Under the pieces are notes generated by a model. The model was given only the letters and a program-made list of their open reading frames with translations. It did not search any database and was not told the origin of the DNA. Of a stretch of 28,702 nucleotides of DNA, positions 367 through 28,068 are shown in pieces. The stretch comes from a virus. The stretch spans positions 1 through 28,702 of IMG/VR virus record IMGVR_UViG_3300022074_000279, one strand, 5' to 3'. The first letter of the stretch is position 1; the number at the start of each line of letters is the position of its first letter. Made by a program: the position numbers and the translations under genes.

Positions 367-789
367 TCAATGACTTACGGCGTCTTTGCTTGCGACCTGC
401 TCGACCGCCGCCGCAATCTCGTCTTGCAGGCTTTCAAGCTCGTCGGCGTAACTGACTGAAATCGTTGCCTGTTTGTCGACAAACATGCCCAATGCGCGGC
501 CAAGTTGTGTCAGTGCCGCGGTTCTGCCACTGGAGGTTTCGCCCTGCTCGGCCTCACGCTTGAGGCCCGCTAGTACATATTCAGGCGTGACCATTTCCTC
601 CGGCTTAGCATATTTAGGCTTTAGCGCCTCAATCGCTTCACGAATGGCAACACGACTTAACAAACGGCTAGCACCTTGGTGAGCGCCATTCGGACTGTAG
701 CCAGCATCGACGTAAGCCTGCCTGCCGTTGCCGCTAACAGCGTAAAGCTCTGTAAATCTTTGCTCTCGGTAACTCAGCGGCCGTTCCAT
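367..789 (-). CDS. terS: terminase small subunit
   Basis: The 140-residue protein matches the phage small terminase pattern. The N-terminus reads LSYREQRFTELYAVSGNGRQAYVDAGYSP, then SRLLSRVAIREAIEAL, which are the helix-turn-helix DNA-binding signature residues of the Terminase_2-type family (compare xxQxxFVxxYxxxxNxxxAAxxAGYS). The middle (residues 65-100) is probably the oligomerisation helix region and the C-terminus is acidic. Small terminase binds the phage packaging site and loads the large-subunit ATPase/nuclease. The ATG at 789 has a GAGGGAACC ribosome binding site just behind a terminator, so it probably has its own transcription start or depends on readthrough. The large subunit is not in the window and should lie past base 1. 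Confidence 0.85.
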   Translation of the reverse strand: MERPLSYREQRFTELYAVSGNGRQAYVDAGYSPNGAHQGASRLLSRVAIREAIEALKPKYAKPEEMVTPEYVLAGLKREAEQGETSSGRTAALTQLGRALGMFVDKQATISVSYADELESLQDEIAAAVEQVASKDAVSH

Positions 790-9503: not shown

Positions 9504-9585
9504 GCTGGCGGCGAGTGCGTGTCAATGTCTTCTCGTGACCAGGGTTTTGTATGTCCCTGTGGCCATCTCGCCGTCAGCACTTTTT
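9504..9585 (+). terminator. branched terminator-like or structured RNA before the excisionase gene
   Basis: GCTGGCGGCGAG (9504-9515) pairs with CTCGCCGTCAGC (9567-9578) over 12 bp with a single G-U wobble, followed by AC and five U (9581-9585). The 51-base apical region has its own hairpin: CCAGGG (9539-9544) pairs with CCCTG and a bulged G (9555-9561). The whole 82-base element lies between stop 9481 and ATG 9600, so the early operon is probably terminated or attenuated here. A processed small RNA is an alternative. Confidence 0.65.
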
Positions 9586-9599
9586 AAAGGGGATTCACA

Positions 9600-9866
9600 A
9601 TGGACTCGCGCTTATTTACGGTAGGAAAACTCGCTGAGCGATGGGGCGTAGACCCCAAGACTATTAGAACGATGGTGCGCAAAGGTGAGATCGCCCACTT
9701 CCAGGTGGGCAGACAAATCAGGTTTATTGAAACAGAAATTAGGAAGCATGAAGGATGGACACAACAATCAAGCTCGGAAAATACCGTGGACGATACGCCG
9801 TGCATTGGTACGAACCATGCGAAGGCGCAACCGGCGTCGAGTGGCGTCTTAGACGTTACGGCTTAG
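9600..9866 (+). CDS. xis: excisionase-like winged-helix protein
   Basis: Residues 5-55 match the helix-turn-helix_17/excisionase family (MerR-like winged helix): LFTVGKLAERWGVDPKTIRTMVRKGEIAHFQVGRQIRFIETEIRKHE. The recognition helix VDPKTIRTMVRKGEI and the wing GRQIRF are clear. The remaining 33 residues are low-complexity and lie in the 112-base overlap with the integrase gene. In this position, directly ahead of a tyrosine integrase, it is most likely the directionality factor that bends attachment-site DNA for excision, though it could also regulate int. ATG 9600 follows AAGGGGATTCACA. Confidence 0.78.
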   Translation: MDSRLFTVGKLAERWGVDPKTIRTMVRKGEIAHFQVGRQIRFIETEIRKHEGWTQQSSSENTVDDTPCIGTNHAKAQPASSGVLDVTA

Positions 9867-10759
9867 GCCTCGCATACAATTTAGAAAATCGAGACAAGGC
9901 AGAACAGCTTCTCGCCGAATACAAGGCCCAGCAGACCGATGTCACTGAGGCAACTGTCAAGGCGGTTTGGCGCAGCTACAAGATCGGCAGTCCAAAAGGG
10001 CGGGAGCACTACGGAGAAAAACACCTGCTGCCGTTTTTCGGCGACCTCGACACCAACAAGATTTCGGTGCCGATGTGCCAAGCCTACATTCAGCGACGCC
10101 GCAACGCAGGAGCTGGCAACGCAACAATCAGGCGCGAGCTGGCGTGCCTTAAAGCGGCGGTTAGAAAGTACGCACCCGAGGGCCATCGAAGTTTTGTATT
10201 TGAGATGCCACCTCCACCACCGCCACGCGATAGGTATCTGACGCGCGAGGAGTTCAAGCTGCTCCGTAGCGCGGTCGCGCCGACCGACCACCTGGCGCTG
10301 TTTGTAGAGATCGCCATCGCCACCGGCGCCCGCAAGTCGGCGATCTGCCAGATGAAGTGGTCTCAGGTAGACTTTGATCGCAAGCTGGTAGACCTGCGCG
10401 GCGACGGCGGGGCGGCAAACAAGCGACGCGCCGTCGTGCCAATGACCGACAACTTATATGATCGGCTGCGTGAGGCAAAGTCGGTTGCGGTGACTGATCA
10501 CGTCGTCGAATATAATTGCAGCCCAATCAAGCGCATTGACATCGCGTTCCGCCGGCGGGTTAAAAAGGTGCCGCAGCTTGCTGACGTGACGCCGCACGTT
10601 TTGCGTCACACGGCGGCGGTCTGGATGGCGGAGGGCGGCGTACCGATGTCGCAAATCTCGCAATTCCTTGGTCACACAAACACCAAAATCACTGAGTCTG
10701 TTTATGCGCGGTTTAGCCCCGATTTTCTGCGCCACGCTGCAGTGGCCCTAAACATATGA
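9755..10759 (+). CDS. int: tyrosine-family site-specific integrase
   Basis: The 334-residue protein has an N-terminal arm-binding-like region (1-60), a core-binding SAM-like domain (about 65-145), a proline-rich hinge (151-157) and a catalytic domain. The catalytic residues are all visible: Arg193 (TGARKSA), Lys223 (NKRRAVVPM), His281 and Arg284 (HVLRH), His307 (FLGHTNT) and the nucleophile Tyr317 (ESVYARF). It would recombine phage attP with bacterial attB. The gene starts inside the excisionase gene in a different frame and ends just before attP. The attP core matches the 3' half of a proline tRNA gene, the usual target type for such enzymes. Confidence 0.93.
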   Translation: MDTTIKLGKYRGRYAVHWYEPCEGATGVEWRLRRYGLGLAYNLENRDKAEQLLAEYKAQQTDVTEATVKAVWRSYKIGSPKGREHYGEKHLLPFFGDLDTNKISVPMCQAYIQRRRNAGAGNATIRRELACLKAAVRKYAPEGHRSFVFEMPPPPPPRDRYLTREEFKLLRSAVAPTDHLALFVEIAIATGARKSAICQMKWSQVDFDRKLVDLRGDGGAANKRRAVVPMTDNLYDRLREAKSVAVTDHVVEYNCSPIKRIDIAFRRRVKKVPQLADVTPHVLRHTAAVWMAEGGVPMSQISQFLGHTNTKITESVYARFSPDFLRHAAVALNI

Positions 10760-10848
10760 AGGGGTCTACTGTGTTATTTTTGTCACAGTTTTATGTTCAA
10801 GTGAACATATTGCACTGCACAATAGTTTCCGCCAAGTCATTGATTTAT

Positions 10849-10893
10849 TGGTCGGAGCGGCCAGATTTGAACTGACGACCCCTTCACCCCCAG
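10849..10893 (-). other. attP: attP core identical in form to the 3' half of a tRNA-Pro(GGG) gene
   Basis: On the minus strand the sequence begins with CTGGGGG, an anticodon loop carrying GGG. It continues with a 3' anticodon stem TGAAG, a variable region, a T stem/loop GTCAG-TTCAAAT-CTGGC and the acceptor strand CGCTCCG-A-CCA. The 5' half of the tRNA is absent: the matching 5' anticodon stem (expected CTTCA) is replaced by unrelated sequence. This is the standard layout of an attP core in a phage that integrates in a tRNA gene and restores its 3' end. It follows the integrase gene by 89 bases. Exact core ends need the host attB. Confidence 0.85.
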
Positions 10894-10964
10894 TAATGAC
10901 AGGCATACGGAAGTTATTGGAAACTAACAGACTTTAGTGGAAGGCAGCGCCTTCAAGTGAACAT

Positions 10965-10998
10965 GCAACCCCTTCACTCAGTATAGTGAAGGGGTTGC
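10965..10998. other. perfect 14-bp inverted repeat between int and the lysis cluster
   Basis: GCAACCCCTTCACT (10965-10978) and AGTGAAGGGGTTGC (10985-10998) pair perfectly around CAGTAT. It sits between convergent int (+) and the 63-residue gene (-), and includes two of the TGAAGGGGT arm-like motifs in opposite orientation. It could be a bidirectional transcription stop or a protein-binding palindrome in attP; no T tract follows. Confidence 0.7.
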
Positions 10999-11050
10999 GA
11001 CACCTTGCGCCAATCCAATCCCTTCACTTTCTGAATAAGACAAGCGAAAA

Positions 11051-11242
11051 CTACCTGCCAAGATAGCCTGCAATGACGCCTATAACGCCCGTCAGCGTCA
11101 TCTTTAAAAGTGTGATCACGCTCTCGTCTGGCGGTCTATGCTCACGGAGAGCGATGTAATAATCACCAACAATGATGACGGTCAGCAGCAGGAAAACGCC
11201 AAAAATCATGGCGATGACCATGATCTCTTTTGCATGCTTCAT
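11051..11242 (-). CDS. small two-span membrane protein of the lysis cluster (63 aa)
   Basis: I choose the ATG at 11242, which has a GGAGGATGCGGC ribosome binding site and overlaps the lysozyme stop (ATGA). The 63-residue product has a hydrophobic helix (residues about 7-27, IMVIAMIFGVFLLLTVIIVGDYYIA), a short charged loop (LREHRPPDES) and a second hydrophobic helix (VITLLKMTLTGVIGVIAGYLG). This hairpin membrane layout, next to the endolysin, suggests a holin, antiholin or other lysis-timing protein. It is the last gene of the minus-strand late transcript before attP. Confidence 0.68.
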   Translation of the reverse strand: MKHAKEIMVIAMIFGVFLLLTVIIVGDYYIALREHRPPDESVITLLKMTLTGVIGVIAGYLGR

Positions 11243-11685
11243 GCCGCATCCTCCATGTCCGATAAAAACAATACTCTCTCGGCTTCTCGACGTCGCACCA
11301 AGCCCGCCAAGCGGCGTCCTGCGGCAAACACCCATCGGGGGAACTCGTCGGCGGCTCCGAGATAATCTTCGCGCATAATCTTACGCCGAAGCGTACTGCT
11401 CTGTAGAGCGCCCGAGCCGAGATTGAAGCTGAATGAAACAAGCGCATCATACTGGCCTTGCGTTAGCGGCACCGGACATAGCCGATGCACCGCGCGTTCA
11501 AACCTAACTAAGTCACGCTTGAGCAACGCCTCGCCTTCGGCCATCGTAATCGGTGGTGTGTCTGCTGTGATGCCAGACGTACTACCCCAACCTTGTGTCC
11601 AAATTTGAGCCGGACATAAGTAGCTTTCAGCGTGAAACCCCTCAAAGTCTTTAATGAGGTCAATGCCCGTTTGACTGATTTTCAT
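11239..11685 (-). CDS. endolysin, GH24 phage lysozyme
   Basis: From ATG 11685 the product has 148 residues and begins MKISQTGIDLIKDFEGFHAESYLCPAQIWTQGWGS. This is the glycoside hydrolase 24 active-site region with the spacing of the T4 lysozyme triad: Glu15, then nine residues on Cys24 in place of the usual Asp, then Thr30 six residues further. The helical C-lobe follows (FERAVHRLCPVPLTQGQYDALVSFSFNLGSGALQSSTL). It would cut the glycan strands of peptidoglycan. There is no signal peptide or hydrophobic anchor, so export should depend on a holin. A TTG start at 11709 is possible but has weaker signals. Confidence 0.88.
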   Translation of the reverse strand: MKISQTGIDLIKDFEGFHAESYLCPAQIWTQGWGSTSGITADTPPITMAEGEALLKRDLVRFERAVHRLCPVPLTQGQYDALVSFSFNLGSGALQSSTLRRKIMREDYLGAADEFPRWVFAAGRRLAGLVRRREAERVLFLSDMEDAA

Positions 11686-21136: not shown

Positions 21137-21790
21137 TTAGGTGCCACCCCAGCCGGCTTGATAACCAGTGACTGTATAAGAGTGATTACTTTTTTGCGTT
21201 AAGCGCGCGCGACTGCCATCCCATGGCATGAATGCCATCCGCAGGCCGTTGGCATAACTAAAGCCAATCGTTGCTGAAAATTCATTCGAGTTATTTTTTC
21301 GGATGAAAATATTGCCAGTTGAGTAGTCGATGCCAACGCCGATAACGTCGCTGTTAGAAATTGACGAGTATCCGGTATTGAAGCCAAGCCGAAAGCGTAT
21401 TTGACGTGAGTAATTTTCTATCCAATCACTGCCGTCGTTCGGACTGCCGCGATCAAATGCGGAAATATTTTCTGCTTTGATAAAACCAACCACGAATGAA
21501 TACGGAGAAATATTCTGGCCCGGCAGCTCTTTCAACTCGATGTAATGCGTTCCGCCGGTGATTGTGCCTTCGAGTGCGGTTACAGCTAAACTACCACCAT
21601 TGCCAGTCAAGTCTCTTTTGTCTGTGCTATAAGTAAGACTGTTGCCTGTGTAGCTGGTGTCCCAGAGCGCCTCACCATTTTGGGGGGTCGAAACAAGTCG
21701 ATCAAATGCGTGTTCTTCAAAATGACTGTTTAAATCGTAAACATTACTGTCTATCGCAGTTGGATCAACTTTTCCTCGAAAACCTAACAT
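21137..21790 (-). CDS. SPRY-like putative receptor-binding protein B (217 aa)
   Basis: The 217-residue protein shares its first 33 residues almost exactly with the neighbouring 206-residue protein (MLGFRGKVDPTAIDSNVYDLN...EHAFDRLV), which looks like a virion anchor. The body resembles a SPRY/concanavalin-like beta-sandwich: HYIELKELPG, YSFVVGFIKAEN, DVIGVGIDYSTGNIFIRKNNS, RMAFMPWDG. Such domains bind proteins or sugars. The protein ends with a GYQAGWGG-type tail shared with the paralogue (GYLAGWPQ). Ribosome binding site GAGGAG. Host recognition is a strong inference, not shown. Confidence 0.72.
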   Translation of the reverse strand: MLGFRGKVDPTAIDSNVYDLNSHFEEHAFDRLVSTPQNGEALWDTSYTGNSLTYSTDKRDLTGNGGSLAVTALEGTITGGTHYIELKELPGQNISPYSFVVGFIKAENISAFDRGSPNDGSDWIENYSRQIRFRLGFNTGYSSISNSDVIGVGIDYSTGNIFIRKNNSNEFSATIGFSYANGLRMAFMPWDGSRARLTQKSNHSYTVTGYQAGWGGT

Positions 21791-21806
21791 TTATGACTGC
21801 TCCTCA

Positions 21807-22427
21807 TTATTGAGGCCAACCAGCTAAATAACCACTTGGGGCCGTGTAGGAGTAGGAGGATAAATCAACTAATGTTAATGCGTTCCCATTCCATAATTCA
21901 ACTGCTAAAAATAAAGCACCAGTCACAGAAAAAGACCCTGACATGCCACTATCTAAAGAATTATTAACATATATGTTTAGAGTCTTATTATCGGCATCAA
22001 GTGCTAGACCTATAGTATCACCATTGTTGATATTATTTGTACCTGCGGGTCCAAATTGTCCAAATCGTCTGCCAAAACAATCAGAGTCATTTTGATTGCG
22101 CATTTCGCCACTGTGATTTGCATTAAGTACTCCCACAGTCAAACTGTTGCCATCCGTTCCGTCGTGAGTCAATTCTATATAATACTTACCAGAAGTGGTT
22201 GAATTTAGTATGTAATTTGCACCAAGTTCCGAGCCGCTGTTGTGTGTAATTGTTTTATTTGAATTTGATAATACCTTACTCGATAGAATATTGCTTGGAT
22301 CAAAAAATGGTTGATAGCCAGCCACTGTTACAAGCCGACCAAAAGCATGCTCACGGTAATGACGATTCAAGTCGTAAACATTACTATCTATCGCAGTGGA
22401 ATCGACTTTGCCGCGAAAGCCCAGCAT
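21807..22427 (-). CDS. SPRY-like putative receptor-binding protein A (206 aa), AT-rich
   Basis: The 206-residue protein has the same anchor as its downstream paralogue (MLGFRGKVDSTAIDSNVYDLN...EHAFGRLV). A different body of the same SPRY-like layout follows: YYIELTHDG, LTVGVLNANHSGE, DTIGLALDADNKTLNIYVNNS, LFLAVELWNG, ending SGYLAGWPQ. The coding body is visibly more AT-rich than its neighbours, whereas the anchor region keeps the local composition, so the body probably came from elsewhere. Ribosome binding site GAGGAG identical in position to that of the paralogue. Confidence 0.74.
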   Translation of the reverse strand: MLGFRGKVDSTAIDSNVYDLNRHYREHAFGRLVTVAGYQPFFDPSNILSSKVLSNSNKTITHNSGSELGANYILNSTTSGKYYIELTHDGTDGNSLTVGVLNANHSGEMRNQNDSDCFGRRFGQFGPAGTNNINNGDTIGLALDADNKTLNIYVNNSLDSGMSGSFSVTGALFLAVELWNGNALTLVDLSSYSYTAPSGYLAGWPQ

Positions 22428-22811: not shown

Positions 22812-25079
22812 CTAGCCAAAAATCATGGCCATAGCGATGGCCTTGCCGGTTGATACGCCTGCTGTCGCAGCCGAGGTTTGAACTGTGCCGTCTGGGAACT
22901 CAACGCCACCTGAAGTAGTCTTAATCTTGCCAGCGACTTCTAGGGGTTCTGAGGGACTCGTCGTGCCAATCCCGACATTGCCAGCAGAATCAATCCGCAT
23001 ACGCTCGGCGTCGTTTGTAAGAAATCTCCAAAAATGATCCGACAGGTCATATTGTCCTAATGTTTTTAAGTAACCTCGGTTGTCATCAACTTGATTGATA
23101 CTAAAAATTGAATCCGAACTGTCTGAATCTCGGATGTAGGTCATCATTAAAACATGACTAGCGTTTGCCGTGGCACCGTTCATTAAAGCGATACCACCAC
23201 CAGAATATTGAGATGTAGCGATGGATTCTGCAACTATCTGCGCAGCGGTTACTGAATTACCTGCGACATGCAGTGGCTCACCTGGACTCGACGTACCAAT
23301 ACCGATATTGCCGCTGTTGTCGATGCGAACACGCTCTGAACCACCTACATTAAATGCAGTAAAACCGGATGTTTGATTACTTTCATTAGATTTAATCGTA
23401 AGTTGCTCACCATTACCTCCCGAAGCTGTGATTTCAGCAAAATTTGATGCGCCGTTAGTGCGAGTCAGTGTAAGTGAGGTTGCTCCATTTTTTTCGATGC
23501 CCACATTACCAGTCAAGGTGCCACCAGATAGAGGCAGATAATCGCTCGTAGCCGCCGTAGCCATCGTGCCAAGGCCAAGCGATGTGCGTTGCGCTGCGGC
23601 GTCTGCATCGTCAAGGATTGCGCGCCCCGCCGCTGTGATGGTGGCCACGGCATAAGTGTCCGACCCAGTGGTGTAGATCATTTTGTCAGCGGCAGTTGTT
23701 AGGCCCGCGATGCTGTTCAAACCGGCGTCATAGGCTTGGACGTCAGAGCCGATCGCGACACCAAGCGCCGTCCTCGCGTCGCTGGCATTCGAGCTGCCAG
23801 TTCCGCCATCGGCCACTGGCAAGTCGCCGGTCGATAGCTGACCGCCGCTTGAGGTGTAGAGCGCGCCAGCAGATAGGCTGGTTGGTAGGGTCAAAGTATA
23901 ATCAGCGCTTGCTGAATGGGGTGGACTTTGAATGCTGGTTGAATGACTTCCTTGTTCGCACTCTAGCTGCAATTTTGCTGCTGCCGTACCACCCTTGATA
24001 ATTACTGAGCCAGTGCCATCCGGCGACAGGGAAATATCCCGACCTGACGAGCTGACGATTGACCGCGCCAAAACGTCGAGGTCGCCCCCAAGCTCTGGAG
24101 ACGTATCGTCAACGACGTTTGATAAACCACCACCACCGCCGCCGCCTGAGCTGGCGGTGGTTTGTGTTGTGCCGTCGGAGAATGTCAGGCCGCTGCTTGT
24201 AAGCGTCAGCGTGCCGCTAGACACCGACGGCGATGCACTTGCTAGGAAAGCGCTGGACGCGCTGGTGGCGGCTGTGCCGAGGCCGAGTGTGCCCCTCATA
24301 GTTGCTACGTCTGAATCGTCCAAAAGCGCCCTGCCCGCAGCCGTGAGGCTAGTTGTTGCGAAGGCATCGCTGCCGGTTGCATAAATTAGCTGATCAGCAC
24401 CGACCGAAACACCTGCCAAGGCGGTTAGCGTTGCATCAGCTTCTTGAGCAGATAGCGTTTGACGCTGAGCAGCCGCATCAGCATCGTCCAATAACGCCCT
24501 GCCCGCAGCCGTGAGGCTAGTTGTTGCGAAGGCATCGCTGCCGGTTGCGTAGATCATCTGGTCTGCGCTTACCGAAACACCGGCTAGGGCGGTTAGCGTC
24601 GCATCGGATTCCTGAGCCGATAATGTAGCTCGCATCGCTGCTGCGTCAGCATCGTCAAGTAACGCACGACCGGCGCTTGTGATTGAGCTAGTCGCAAAGG
24701 CATCACTGCCCGTTGCGTAGATCATTTGATCAGCGCTGACTGTGAGGCCAGCCAAAGCCGTCAGAGTAGCATCTGTTGACTGGAAGCCGCTTACGTTGAT
24801 TGTGCGGGTTTCGTTGGCCCCGCTATTGTTTGTCGTAAAACTGACCCCGGTGCCGGCGATCAGCTTGTCCTCTAAGGTGCTTGGGCTTTGGTCGTCGCTG
24901 CTGACCTTTAAGCCTGTGGCCGCATTTGCGGCAGATGTAGCACTAGCCGCAGCGGCTGTGGCTGACGTAGCCGCCGCAGTCGCTGACGTAGCCGCAGCCG
25001 TCGCTGACGTAGCCGCCTGATCAGCCAGGCTTTGTGTGACTGTGGTGCCGCCAGTTGACGACCAGACTGTTGTGCTCAT
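22812..25079 (-). CDS. tail fibre with internal 56-residue repeats (755 aa)
   Basis: The 755-residue protein starts with a short N-terminal part, then an alanine/serine/threonine heptad-like tract (residues 22-50, ATSATAA repeated). Three near-identical 56-residue units follow (103-158, 159-214, 215-270) carrying DATLTALAG, ADQMIYATGSDAFAT and AAGRALLDDADAA. A diverged fourth copy (YDAGLNSIAGLTTAADKMIYTTGSD) lies near residues 450-510. A glycine run and VVDDTSPELGGDLDVLARSIV (a beta-helix unit of marine fibres) and GNIGIGTSSPGEPLHVAGN motifs complete the shaft. No C-terminal self-cleaving chaperone (S74) is visible. It overlaps the adaptor gene by 4 bases (ATGA). Confidence 0.85.
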   Translation of the reverse strand: MSTTVWSSTGGTTVTQSLADQAATSATAAATSATAAATSATAAAASATSAANAATGLKVSSDDQSPSTLEDKLIAGTGVSFTTNNSGANETRTINVSGFQSTDATLTALAGLTVSADQMIYATGSDAFATSSITSAGRALLDDADAAAMRATLSAQESDATLTALAGVSVSADQMIYATGSDAFATTSLTAAGRALLDDADAAAQRQTLSAQEADATLTALAGVSVGADQLIYATGSDAFATTSLTAAGRALLDDSDVATMRGTLGLGTAATSASSAFLASASPSVSSGTLTLTSSGLTFSDGTTQTTASSGGGGGGGLSNVVDDTSPELGGDLDVLARSIVSSSGRDISLSPDGTGSVIIKGGTAAAKLQLECEQGSHSTSIQSPPHSASADYTLTLPTSLSAGALYTSSGGQLSTGDLPVADGGTGSSNASDARTALGVAIGSDVQAYDAGLNSIAGLTTAADKMIYTTGSDTYAVATITAAGRAILDDADAAAQRTSLGLGTMATAATSDYLPLSGGTLTGNVGIEKNGATSLTLTRTNGASNFAEITASGGNGEQLTIKSNESNQTSGFTAFNVGGSERVRIDNSGNIGIGTSSPGEPLHVAGNSVTAAQIVAESIATSQYSGGGIALMNGATANASHVLMMTYIRDSDSSDSIFSINQVDDNRGYLKTLGQYDLSDHFWRFLTNDAERMRIDSAGNVGIGTTSPSEPLEVAGKIKTTSGGVEFPDGTVQTSAATAGVSTGKAIAMAMIFG
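24270..24773 (-). repeat. three tandem 168-bp units in the tail-fibre gene
   Basis: Three 168-bp units encode the 56-residue repeats. Two units share an identical block of over 50 bp (beginning at 24327 and 24495), and the third starts at the same phase (24663), so the period is exactly 168 bp. The high DNA identity between two units indicates recent duplication or ongoing homogenisation. Confidence 0.85.
24930..25016 (-). repeat. 21-bp tandem repeats encoding ATSATAA heptads
   Basis: The motif GCTGACGTAGCCGC recurs at 21-bp spacing in the plus-strand sequence 24960-25017. It encodes the Ala/Thr/Ser heptads near the fibre N-terminus. Heptad periodicity suggests a trimeric coiled-coil stalk. 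Confidence 0.75.
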
Positions 25080-26124: not shown

Positions 26125-27102
26125 TTAGGTCACAGTGCCATCAATGTCGATGACAGCGCCATGAGCCTTTGGAGCCATCAATTTAATGGTATGCTCAGTG
26201 ATCATTGCGAAGGTTTCGGCGTCCGAAGTTTTCGCCAACTCCTCAGTCACAAAGTTACGACCTGGCAGCGTTGCAACAGCCAAATAATCGGTGTCCAGCA
26301 AGAACACGCGATCATTGTGGTTGGCTGCCATGACCCGTGATGGAGTTACGTCGAGAGCTCCGAAATCGCTCATATAAATCGACACGGACCCATTCAGAGT
26401 CAGTGCCTTACCTTCGGTCGCCTGCACTTGGTTGCTTGTGCCAGATGCCATAGCGTTTGAAATGCCACTGAAGGCATTTTTCAGAGCTGGAGACATAACC
26501 ATCATGTTCGGCTCGCCACCGTCAATGTAGCAATCTTGCATAACAGCGTCGATCATTGCGATGGTCAGCGAACGATCGGTGCCGGTGGTGGTGATGGCAG
26601 CTGAACCGTTTTGGTTGTTGGCTGCCAAAGCTGACGTGCTACCAGCGGTTGAAAAACTGACGTTTGACAGATAGCTGGTGATTGACGCGCACTCACGGGT
26701 ACCAGATGACACATATGCATTGTCCGTGATGTAAGCCAGCTCCATATCGCGCCGGAGCTCTTTTGCCTTCAAAAGCTTTTGATAAGCAATTTCAGAGTCA
26801 CGCCCTGCAGCGTTAATAGACTCTGAAGTGCCTGAAATTGCGACGACCTTTGAGGCAATCATATGATAGTTTCCGATGCGAACAGGAGCTGTCACAGCGG
26901 CGCTTGACAGTGAACCACCATCCGCAAGCTTGTTATCGGCAGCAGCTGCCAGGTCTTGATAAAGCCACTCATGAAAGACGCCGGAGGAGGTTTCTTTCTT
27001 GGCAGCACTATAAATTGGAACATCCGCTGGTTGAATTTGTGCGATTACATTTGCGAGGTCTTCACGCGCCCCGACGACGTTATTAGCTGTTAAAGTAGTC
27101 AT
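26125..27102 (-). CDS. major capsid protein, SU10 / DUF5309-like
   Basis: The 325-residue protein matches the SU10-type major head protein family (DUF5309). Typical features are the N-terminal LANVIAQIQPADVPIYSAAKKETSSGVFHEWLYQDL (E-x-x-x-I-x-x-I-x-P-x-x-x-P), the middle RDSEIAYQKLLKAKELRRDMELAYI and the later PNMMVMSPALKNAF and DRVFLLDTDYLAV stretches. It should adopt the HK97 fold. Length is normal for the family. ATG 27102 has an AAGGAG ribosome binding site inside the end of the scaffold gene; that site can pair in a small CTCC/GGAG hairpin. A strong terminator follows. Confidence 0.88.
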   Translation of the reverse strand: MTTLTANNVVGAREDLANVIAQIQPADVPIYSAAKKETSSGVFHEWLYQDLAAAADNKLADGGSLSSAAVTAPVRIGNYHMIASKVVAISGTSESINAAGRDSEIAYQKLLKAKELRRDMELAYITDNAYVSSGTRECASITSYLSNVSFSTAGSTSALAANNQNGSAAITTTGTDRSLTIAMIDAVMQDCYIDGGEPNMMVMSPALKNAFSGISNAMASGTSNQVQATEGKALTLNGSVSIYMSDFGALDVTPSRVMAANHNDRVFLLDTDYLAVATLPGRNFVTEELAKTSDAETFAMITEHTIKLMAPKAHGAVIDIDGTVT

Positions 27103-27105
27103 TGA

Positions 27106-28068
27106 TCACTCCTTGAGGAGCAAGAGATTCACTGCGTCATCAATCTTGCCCGAGGTTTTAAGCTTATCGAACGCCGCCTGGCGCCGACGTGACGTGCGCT
27201 GCTTTTTCGTGACCGGCTGCCCGCCCTTGGCTGCCTTTGGAGCGTTTTTGACCCGTTTTGCATCAACCTTTTGATCTTTCATAAGCTGATCAAACTTCCA
27301 TGCCTTGTGCAGTAATTCGACGGCGCGAGCATCAACGACATTGCTGATTTCATCATCGCTAAAACCGCTGCTTTTTGCGTAAGCAACCACAGCCGCTTTT
27401 TCTGTCTCTGCTACCTTTTGGTCCCGCCAAGCCGGTATGCGTTCCAACAAAACATCGCGCTGCGTGGCGACTTCTCGCTGCATCGCTTGCTGTTGCTCTG
27501 CCATCTGTTGTTGCTGCAGACGGCTTTGCTCGGCTTGAACTTGTGCCAGGCGCTCTTGCTTGTCGCGCCATGCATCTTTTTGAACCATGTATTCAAACGG
27601 GTCTTCATCCTTCAGCCGGTTCCAGTCCGGCTGCTCCTCGGCGCTGAGTTGGCCTTGAATCAACTGTAGCGCTTGAGCGTATTGTTCACGCTCTGCCGTA
27701 ATCTTCTGAGCCTCGGCTTCAACGGCCTTGCGTTGCTTGGCCAGCTCCATTGTCTTACGGCTATAATCTGCCTGTCGCTGATAGCCCTTGGCGGCCTCAT
27801 CACGGGTGACTTTCTCAACTTTTCCATCAATCGTTACTTCGATTGAGTCGTCGAGCAGTTCCGGTTCAACCTCATCGGCATCATCGTCATCGGCAAATTG
27901 TTCCTCACCTTCTTCAGCGTCAAATGCAGCGTTTTCAACTACATCATCAGCTTGTGAGTCTTGGCTTACGTCATCATCGTCAGCCTGTAGCGTTTCGACA
28001 GGTGGGTTGTCCTCTTGAGGGTTCACCAGTAACGAAACAGCATCTTCCATCGAAATTTCAGTAGACAT
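27106..28068 (-). CDS. head scaffolding protein
   Basis: The 320-residue protein has a strongly acidic N-terminal third (ADDDDVSQDSQADDVVENAAFDAEEGEEQ), then a long helical coiled-coil middle with many Gln/Glu/Lys (about residues 120-215, including LAQVQAEQSRLQQQQMAEQQ). A basic C-terminus follows (KRVKNAPKAAKGGQPVTKKQRTSRRR), then a last hydrophobic helix (KIDDAVNLLLLKE). Acidic start, coiled coil and a basic C-terminal capsid-binding helix are characteristic of podovirus scaffolds. It lies directly upstream of the capsid gene, the usual order. Confidence 0.82.
   Translation of the reverse strand: MSTEISMEDAVSLLVNPQEDNPPVETLQADDDDVSQDSQADDVVENAAFDAEEGEEQFADDDDADEVEPELLDDSIEVTIDGKVEKVTRDEAAKGYQRQADYSRKTMELAKQRKAVEAEAQKITAEREQYAQALQLIQGQLSAEEQPDWNRLKDEDPFEYMVQKDAWRDKQERLAQVQAEQSRLQQQQMAEQQQAMQREVATQRDVLLERIPAWRDQKVAETEKAAVVAYAKSSGFSDDEISNVVDARAVELLHKAWKFDQLMKDQKVDAKRVKNAPKAAKGGQPVTKKQRTSRRRQAAFDKLKTSGKIDDAVNLLLLKE

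Follow-up and report, generated by a model that had tools for sequence, protein, structure and literature searches.

A proline tRNA 3′ half beside an integrase gene as the probable attP of a marine temperate phage of a Rhodospirillaceae-type lineage

The window analysed here is the whole 28,702-nucleotide stretch of IMG/VR virus record IMGVR_UViG_3300022074_000279, and its features are listed in Table 1. An excisionase-like gene directly precedes the integrase gene and overlaps its start, and the encoded protein would presumably serve the attP system in excision. The integrase gene in turn converges, by its C-terminal end, on a block of tRNA sequence, with its stop at 10759 and the block beginning at 10849, 90 bp apart. 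Residues R193, K223, R284, H307 and Y317 of the integrase are invariant in an alignment of 23 sequences, and H281 is nearly so. The structural model consists of an N-terminal three-strand sheet and helix, then a core-binding domain and then a catalytic domain, and in Foldseek it aligns with full-length lambda Int (E about 1e-8). The protein is identified from its sequence as a lambda-type tyrosine integrase, and its N-terminus is predicted from the model to resemble an arm-binding domain.

Table 1. Features of the window around the predicted attachment site and at the window ends
Feature	Position	Strand	Remarks
Terminase small subunit	367..789	-	phrog_51 2.5e-17; packaging genes run off left end
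Excisionase-like HTH protein, 88 aa	9600..9866	+	PF12728 1.8e-10; phrog_1840 excisionase 5.7e-7
Tyrosine integrase, 334 aa	9755..10759	+	PF00589 4.7e-23; phrog_1 4.7e-59
Whole attP region (P arm, core, P′ arm)	10757..11030		Repeat cluster; contains all three AGTGAAGGG of the window
TTCAAGTGAACAT copy 1, P side	10796..10808	+	Candidate arm-type or accessory-protein site
attP core	10849..10894	-	46 bases = 3′ part of tRNA-Pro(GGG); block unique in window
TTCAAGTGAACAT copy 2, P′ side	10952..10964	+	Exact repeat; two substitutions in L004/L005
Perfect 14-bp inverted repeat GCAACCCCTTCACT / AGTGAAGGGGTTGC	10965..10998		Candidate inverted pair of integrase arm sites
Third arm-like motif copy AGTGAAGGGATTG	11016..11028	-	Conserved in L004 and C25 core1
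94-aa ORF adjoining P′ arm	11051..11335	-	Homologue marks P′ side of both G022 C25 junctions
SU10-type major capsid protein + scaffold	26125..28068	-	PF17236 5.8e-67; phrog_3927 3.3e-62; structural module, P′ side

The original prediction held that 45 bases on the minus strand are the 3′ half of a proline tRNA and form an attP core. This 45-mer, CTGGGGGTGAAGGGGTCGTCAGTTCAAATCTGGCCGCTCCGACCA, occurs once in the window (10893-10849, minus strand; chance expectation 0 matches). Among 84,980 species genomes it has a single exact match, in PBMU01000002.1, 'Rhodospirillaceae bacterium isolate SP205', a MAG of the predicted lineage, where it lies inside a complete tRNA-Pro(GGG) (L006, 4137-4213). A bacterial tRNA-Pro sharing the core, on which the prediction hung, therefore exists, and provides the chromosomal attachment site that had been expected. 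The identity between the window and the SP205 tRNA actually covers 46 bases, 10849-10894, one more than first proposed. The first base of the block is the final one of the 5′ anticodon-stem strand; from there the block continues through the anticodon loop CTGGGGG, the 3′ stem strand TGAAG, the variable loop, the T arm (GTCAG-TTCAAAT-CTGGC) and the acceptor 3′ strand CGCTCCG to the terminal ACCA (minus strand, 5′ to 3′), thus ending at CCA. Directly upstream of it the window reads GTCATTA in place of the CACTTCA of the tRNA, so the 5′ half is absent from the window, as had been stated; ARAGORN found no tRNA in the window.

The block had also been said to fold as a tRNA 3′ half. Its centroid fold consists of the T-arm hairpin and flanking pairs, and the piece alone folds no better than shuffled sequences (z -0.19). 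Folding was therefore dropped as evidence, and the half-tRNA is identified by its sequence identity with a real tRNA gene.

Within three mismatches, the 45-mer was found in 2 of 36 genomes of the family of SP205 and in 3 of 385 genomes sampled from its class, and this rarity makes the host assignment narrow. The core thus identifies a host group, as anticipated, namely MAGs of a Rhodospirillaceae type; the MAG series to which SP205 belongs is marine. Upstream of the SP205 tRNA lie plsX-fabH-ihfA-merR (merR was assigned by Pfam, the other three genes by reading their translations). A relative of the integrase was looked for in SP205 and none was present. A second, diverged tRNA-Pro 3′ piece lies in SP205 2.9 kb downstream of the intact tRNA (G001, contig C2, 7074-7131; L081). 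In addition to the 3′ sequence, this piece keeps some of the 5′ half, starting at the D loop, and its flank resembles the P side of the phage.

G022, another MAG from the family of SP205, encodes an integrase with 96% amino acid identity to that of the window. In the rest of the family the next-best integrase is 37% identical along part of the sequence, and 47% is the highest identity in the 385-genome class sample. On contig C38 of G022, positions 9532-10916 match window positions 9508-10894, that is, xis, int and the attP half, at 92% identity, and the match breaks off precisely at 10894, the 5′ border of the core. ARAGORN places a complete tRNA-Pro(GGG) at that border. The tRNA is preceded by plsX-fabH-ihfA-merR as in SP205, and the two contigs are similar at the DNA level. 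By sequence comparison we identify the C38 junction as an attL at the predicted site, so that an integrated relative, its integrase gene joined to the complete tRNA, answers the expectation of prophages flanked by the core and supports the attP role of the block. Short-read assembly could in principle falsely join phage and host DNA at a 46-bp repeat.

The G022 element is a different phage, as judged from its other genes, which come from elsewhere than the window phage: they encode a fasciclin, a XerC-like protein, ParA, a methyltransferase, a hydrolase and a small-terminase-like protein 36% identical to the terminase small subunit of the window. The small-terminase-like gene adjoins xis, and the cargo island behind the integrase gene (C38 1-10870, L125) also carries HxlR, a XerC-like/ParA pair and duplicated 162-aa ORFs. 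Codon 46 of the C38 integrase gene reads as an internal TGA, probably a sign of an inactive copy, if not of an assembly error. The T arm of G022 differs from that of the window, and a search for viral contigs with the G022-type core found none. The capsid protein of the window had no match in the 36 family genomes, and a complete prophage of the window phage was thus not found among them.

Integrase relatives at 35-50% identity were also considered as a test of target choice. They lie beside tRNA-Val, tRNA-Met and other tRNA genes and are too distant to count either way. The idea that prophages of the family inserted elsewhere would speak against the prediction must therefore be read as one about close relatives, and there the G022 element fits.

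Taken as sequence evidence, these data make it very probable (about 0.93) that the block serves as attP for a temperate tailed phage whose integrase inserts the circular genome at tRNA-Pro(GGG) of a marine Rhodospirillaceae-type lineage. A lambda-type tyrosine integrase would insert the circular genome into the tRNA gene downstream of plsX-fabH-ihfA-merR. Strand exchange would fall inside the 46 bp that attP and attB share; its most likely place is the 7-nt anticodon loop, by analogy with what is established for integrases that target tRNA genes, and the stem strands CTTCA/TGAAG of attB would serve as a pair of core-type half sites. A complete tRNA would then be rebuilt beside int (attL) from the 3′ half that the phage brings in, and the displaced host 3′ half would come to lie at the far end of the element (attR). 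That the window holds just half a tRNA might also be expected of a phage-borne pseudogene or decayed remnant with no role in integration. We regard this as having practically no chance of being correct: the block is identical to the host tRNA over 46 bases, an intact int adjoins it, and the int of a relative is joined to a complete tRNA at exactly this block in the G022 attL.

Two more P′-core junctions occur in the same orientation on contig C25 of G022: one at 32712-33380 with 81% identity to the window, the other at 21635-22094 with 75%. On the P side of the first lies what remains of a decayed int. The roughly 11 kb between the two (21653-32905, L123+L124) contain a peptide ABC transporter operon, as read from translations. 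We read these junctions, from their sequence, as serially integrated and decayed relatives at one tRNA. The stack would be made up of an element A comprising C38 and the right end of C25, an element B represented by the ABC transporter island, and perhaps a third element; C38 and C25 would be linked in such an arrangement. C25 33589-35199 also matches window 3519-1911 (the primase end and two ORFs) at 88%; this match stands on the P′ side of a core, in an order rearranged relative to the window.

The original prediction further took the window to be in the unintegrated arrangement. All five viral contigs with the core (the window, L002, L003, L004 and L005) have phage DNA on both sides of it and no tRNA, which fits this claim. 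L002 is identical to the window, and the two may come from the same population; L003, L004 and L005 differ from it by 1-5%. A search for wider viral relatives with the P′ arm returned just the same four contigs. The minus strand encodes the terminase small subunit near the left end as well as the scaffold and capsid proteins at the right; a large terminase and a portal were expected and none was found among the window ORFs searched. This layout fits a circular or permuted genome cut within the packaging genes. Serial integration in C25 means, on the other hand, that the order P′-core-P-int can arise within a chromosome, so that an attP is by itself no proof of the free form. The window might accordingly span the boundary between two prophages integrated in tandem, which would likewise bring P′, core, P and int together, as in C25. 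Such an origin is improbable: the joined attP is also present in the four additional viral contigs, which come from other IMG/VR records and show neither an attL nor an attR, and the gene order passes from the left end of the window into its right end, in the manner of a circular or permuted genome. The attP-joined form, that is, free or replicating phage DNA, is well supported. The tail fibre gene (22812-25079) contains internal direct repeats at 24315-24773, seen as offset matches of relatives.

The attP region is conserved in L002-L005 and partly in G022 C25. Repeat motifs occupy both sides of the core, and the three copies of AGTGAAGGG in the window all flank it, on one side. In 7 of 2000 shuffles the most-repeated 8-mer reached at least four copies. 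The central part and right arm of the inverted repeat are kept in the window, in L004 and in both C25 junctions, and the CACTATACTGAGTGAAGGGGT block is unchanged in the most diverged junction. The GTGAAGGGGTTG motif is one base off GTGAAGGGGTCG of the core. These repeats are candidate arm-type integrase sites, a reading inferred from their sequence and placement. The 14-bp inverted repeat (10965-10998) also sits between convergent genes and could fold as RNA, which would suit an interpretation of the AGTGAAGGGG/TTCAAGTGAACAT repeats as phage repressor operators or a transcription terminator rather than arm sites. We consider this unlikely, although far from negligible: a T run is absent behind the hairpin on either strand, repeat copies flank the core on both sides within 274 bp, and repeats are kept beside a core in C25 core1 and partly in core2. 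An arm-like motif, TGAAGGGGT, is also present inside the tRNA-derived core (10878-10887), besides 10757, 10968, 10987 and 11018. IHF-like sites numbered 8 against 2.9 expected at two mismatches; half of them are the AGTGAA repeats themselves, and IHF sites are therefore not claimed.

The 3′ half of the host tRNA itself varies. The T stem is GTGGG/CCCGC in 23 of 23 other tRNA-Pro(GGG) loci examined in the family, GTCAG/CTGGC in SP205, as in the window phage, and GCGTG/CACGC in G022. The two C25 junctions hold both of these latter versions. Over 31 positions of the 5′ half, SP205 has one difference from the common family sequence and G022 none. The G022 acceptor strand has one change, at position 69, giving a G-U pair with the unchanged 5′ half. 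In the family, T arms depart from the consensus only where elements or remnants sit. This pattern and the second 3′ piece in SP205 fit the import of 3′ halves by integrating elements. We suggest, tentatively and from sequence comparison, that integration of these phages and related islands may repeatedly replace the 3′ half of the host tRNA-Pro(GGG); if so, a phage edits an essential host tRNA. The deviant T stems could also be put down to lineage drift, as only two genomes deviate and the numbers are small. Outside the family set, G140 and G216 have the GTCAG T stem as well. An association of T-arm type with an element was sought at G140 and given up: GTCAG/CTGGC is present there, and the 19 kb around the tRNA contain no integrase relative.

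A marine temperate phage that was so far hostless is tied by these results to one bacterial lineage, with an insertion site confirmed in a relative beyond mere prediction. The capsid protein of this phage has at most about 43% identity to any phage record among the matches listed. In the host lineage, tRNA-Pro(GGG) appears to be a spot where phage-type elements and cargo islands pile up.

The window attP is an ordinary site of a known type, and a new example with unusually direct support. Mizuno et al. 2013 (PMC3861242) used attP-tRNA identity to assign marine phage contigs to hosts, and the window resembles those contigs in combining int with an exact match, of 36-46 bp in that work, to part of a host tRNA gene. 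It differs from them in its tRNA, tRNA-Pro(GGG), in its marine Rhodospirillaceae-type MAG host and in having an integrated relative at the predicted site. The integrase shares with the lambda, P2 and HP1 types the catalytic residues, a three-domain model, and sequence and fold matches to HP1, P2 and lambda Int, at a low identity of about 16-28% in structural alignments; a difference from those systems is that the arm-like motif of the window looks like the 3′ strand of the anticodon stem in the core itself. Integrative elements such as the ICEs and IMEs of S. suis are described as accreting in tandem at tRNA and other sites (PMC7168690). G022 likewise has several elements stacked at one attachment site, but in this case, in a MAG, they are decayed phage-type int/attP modules with cargo islands. 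Mycobacteriophages with tRNA-dependent lysogeny (PMC10865867) have a core of about 10 bp and need a complementing phage tRNA. Those phages also use a tyrosine integrase and an attB within a tRNA gene, whereas the attP block of the window rebuilds the tRNA and would thus be of the classical type.
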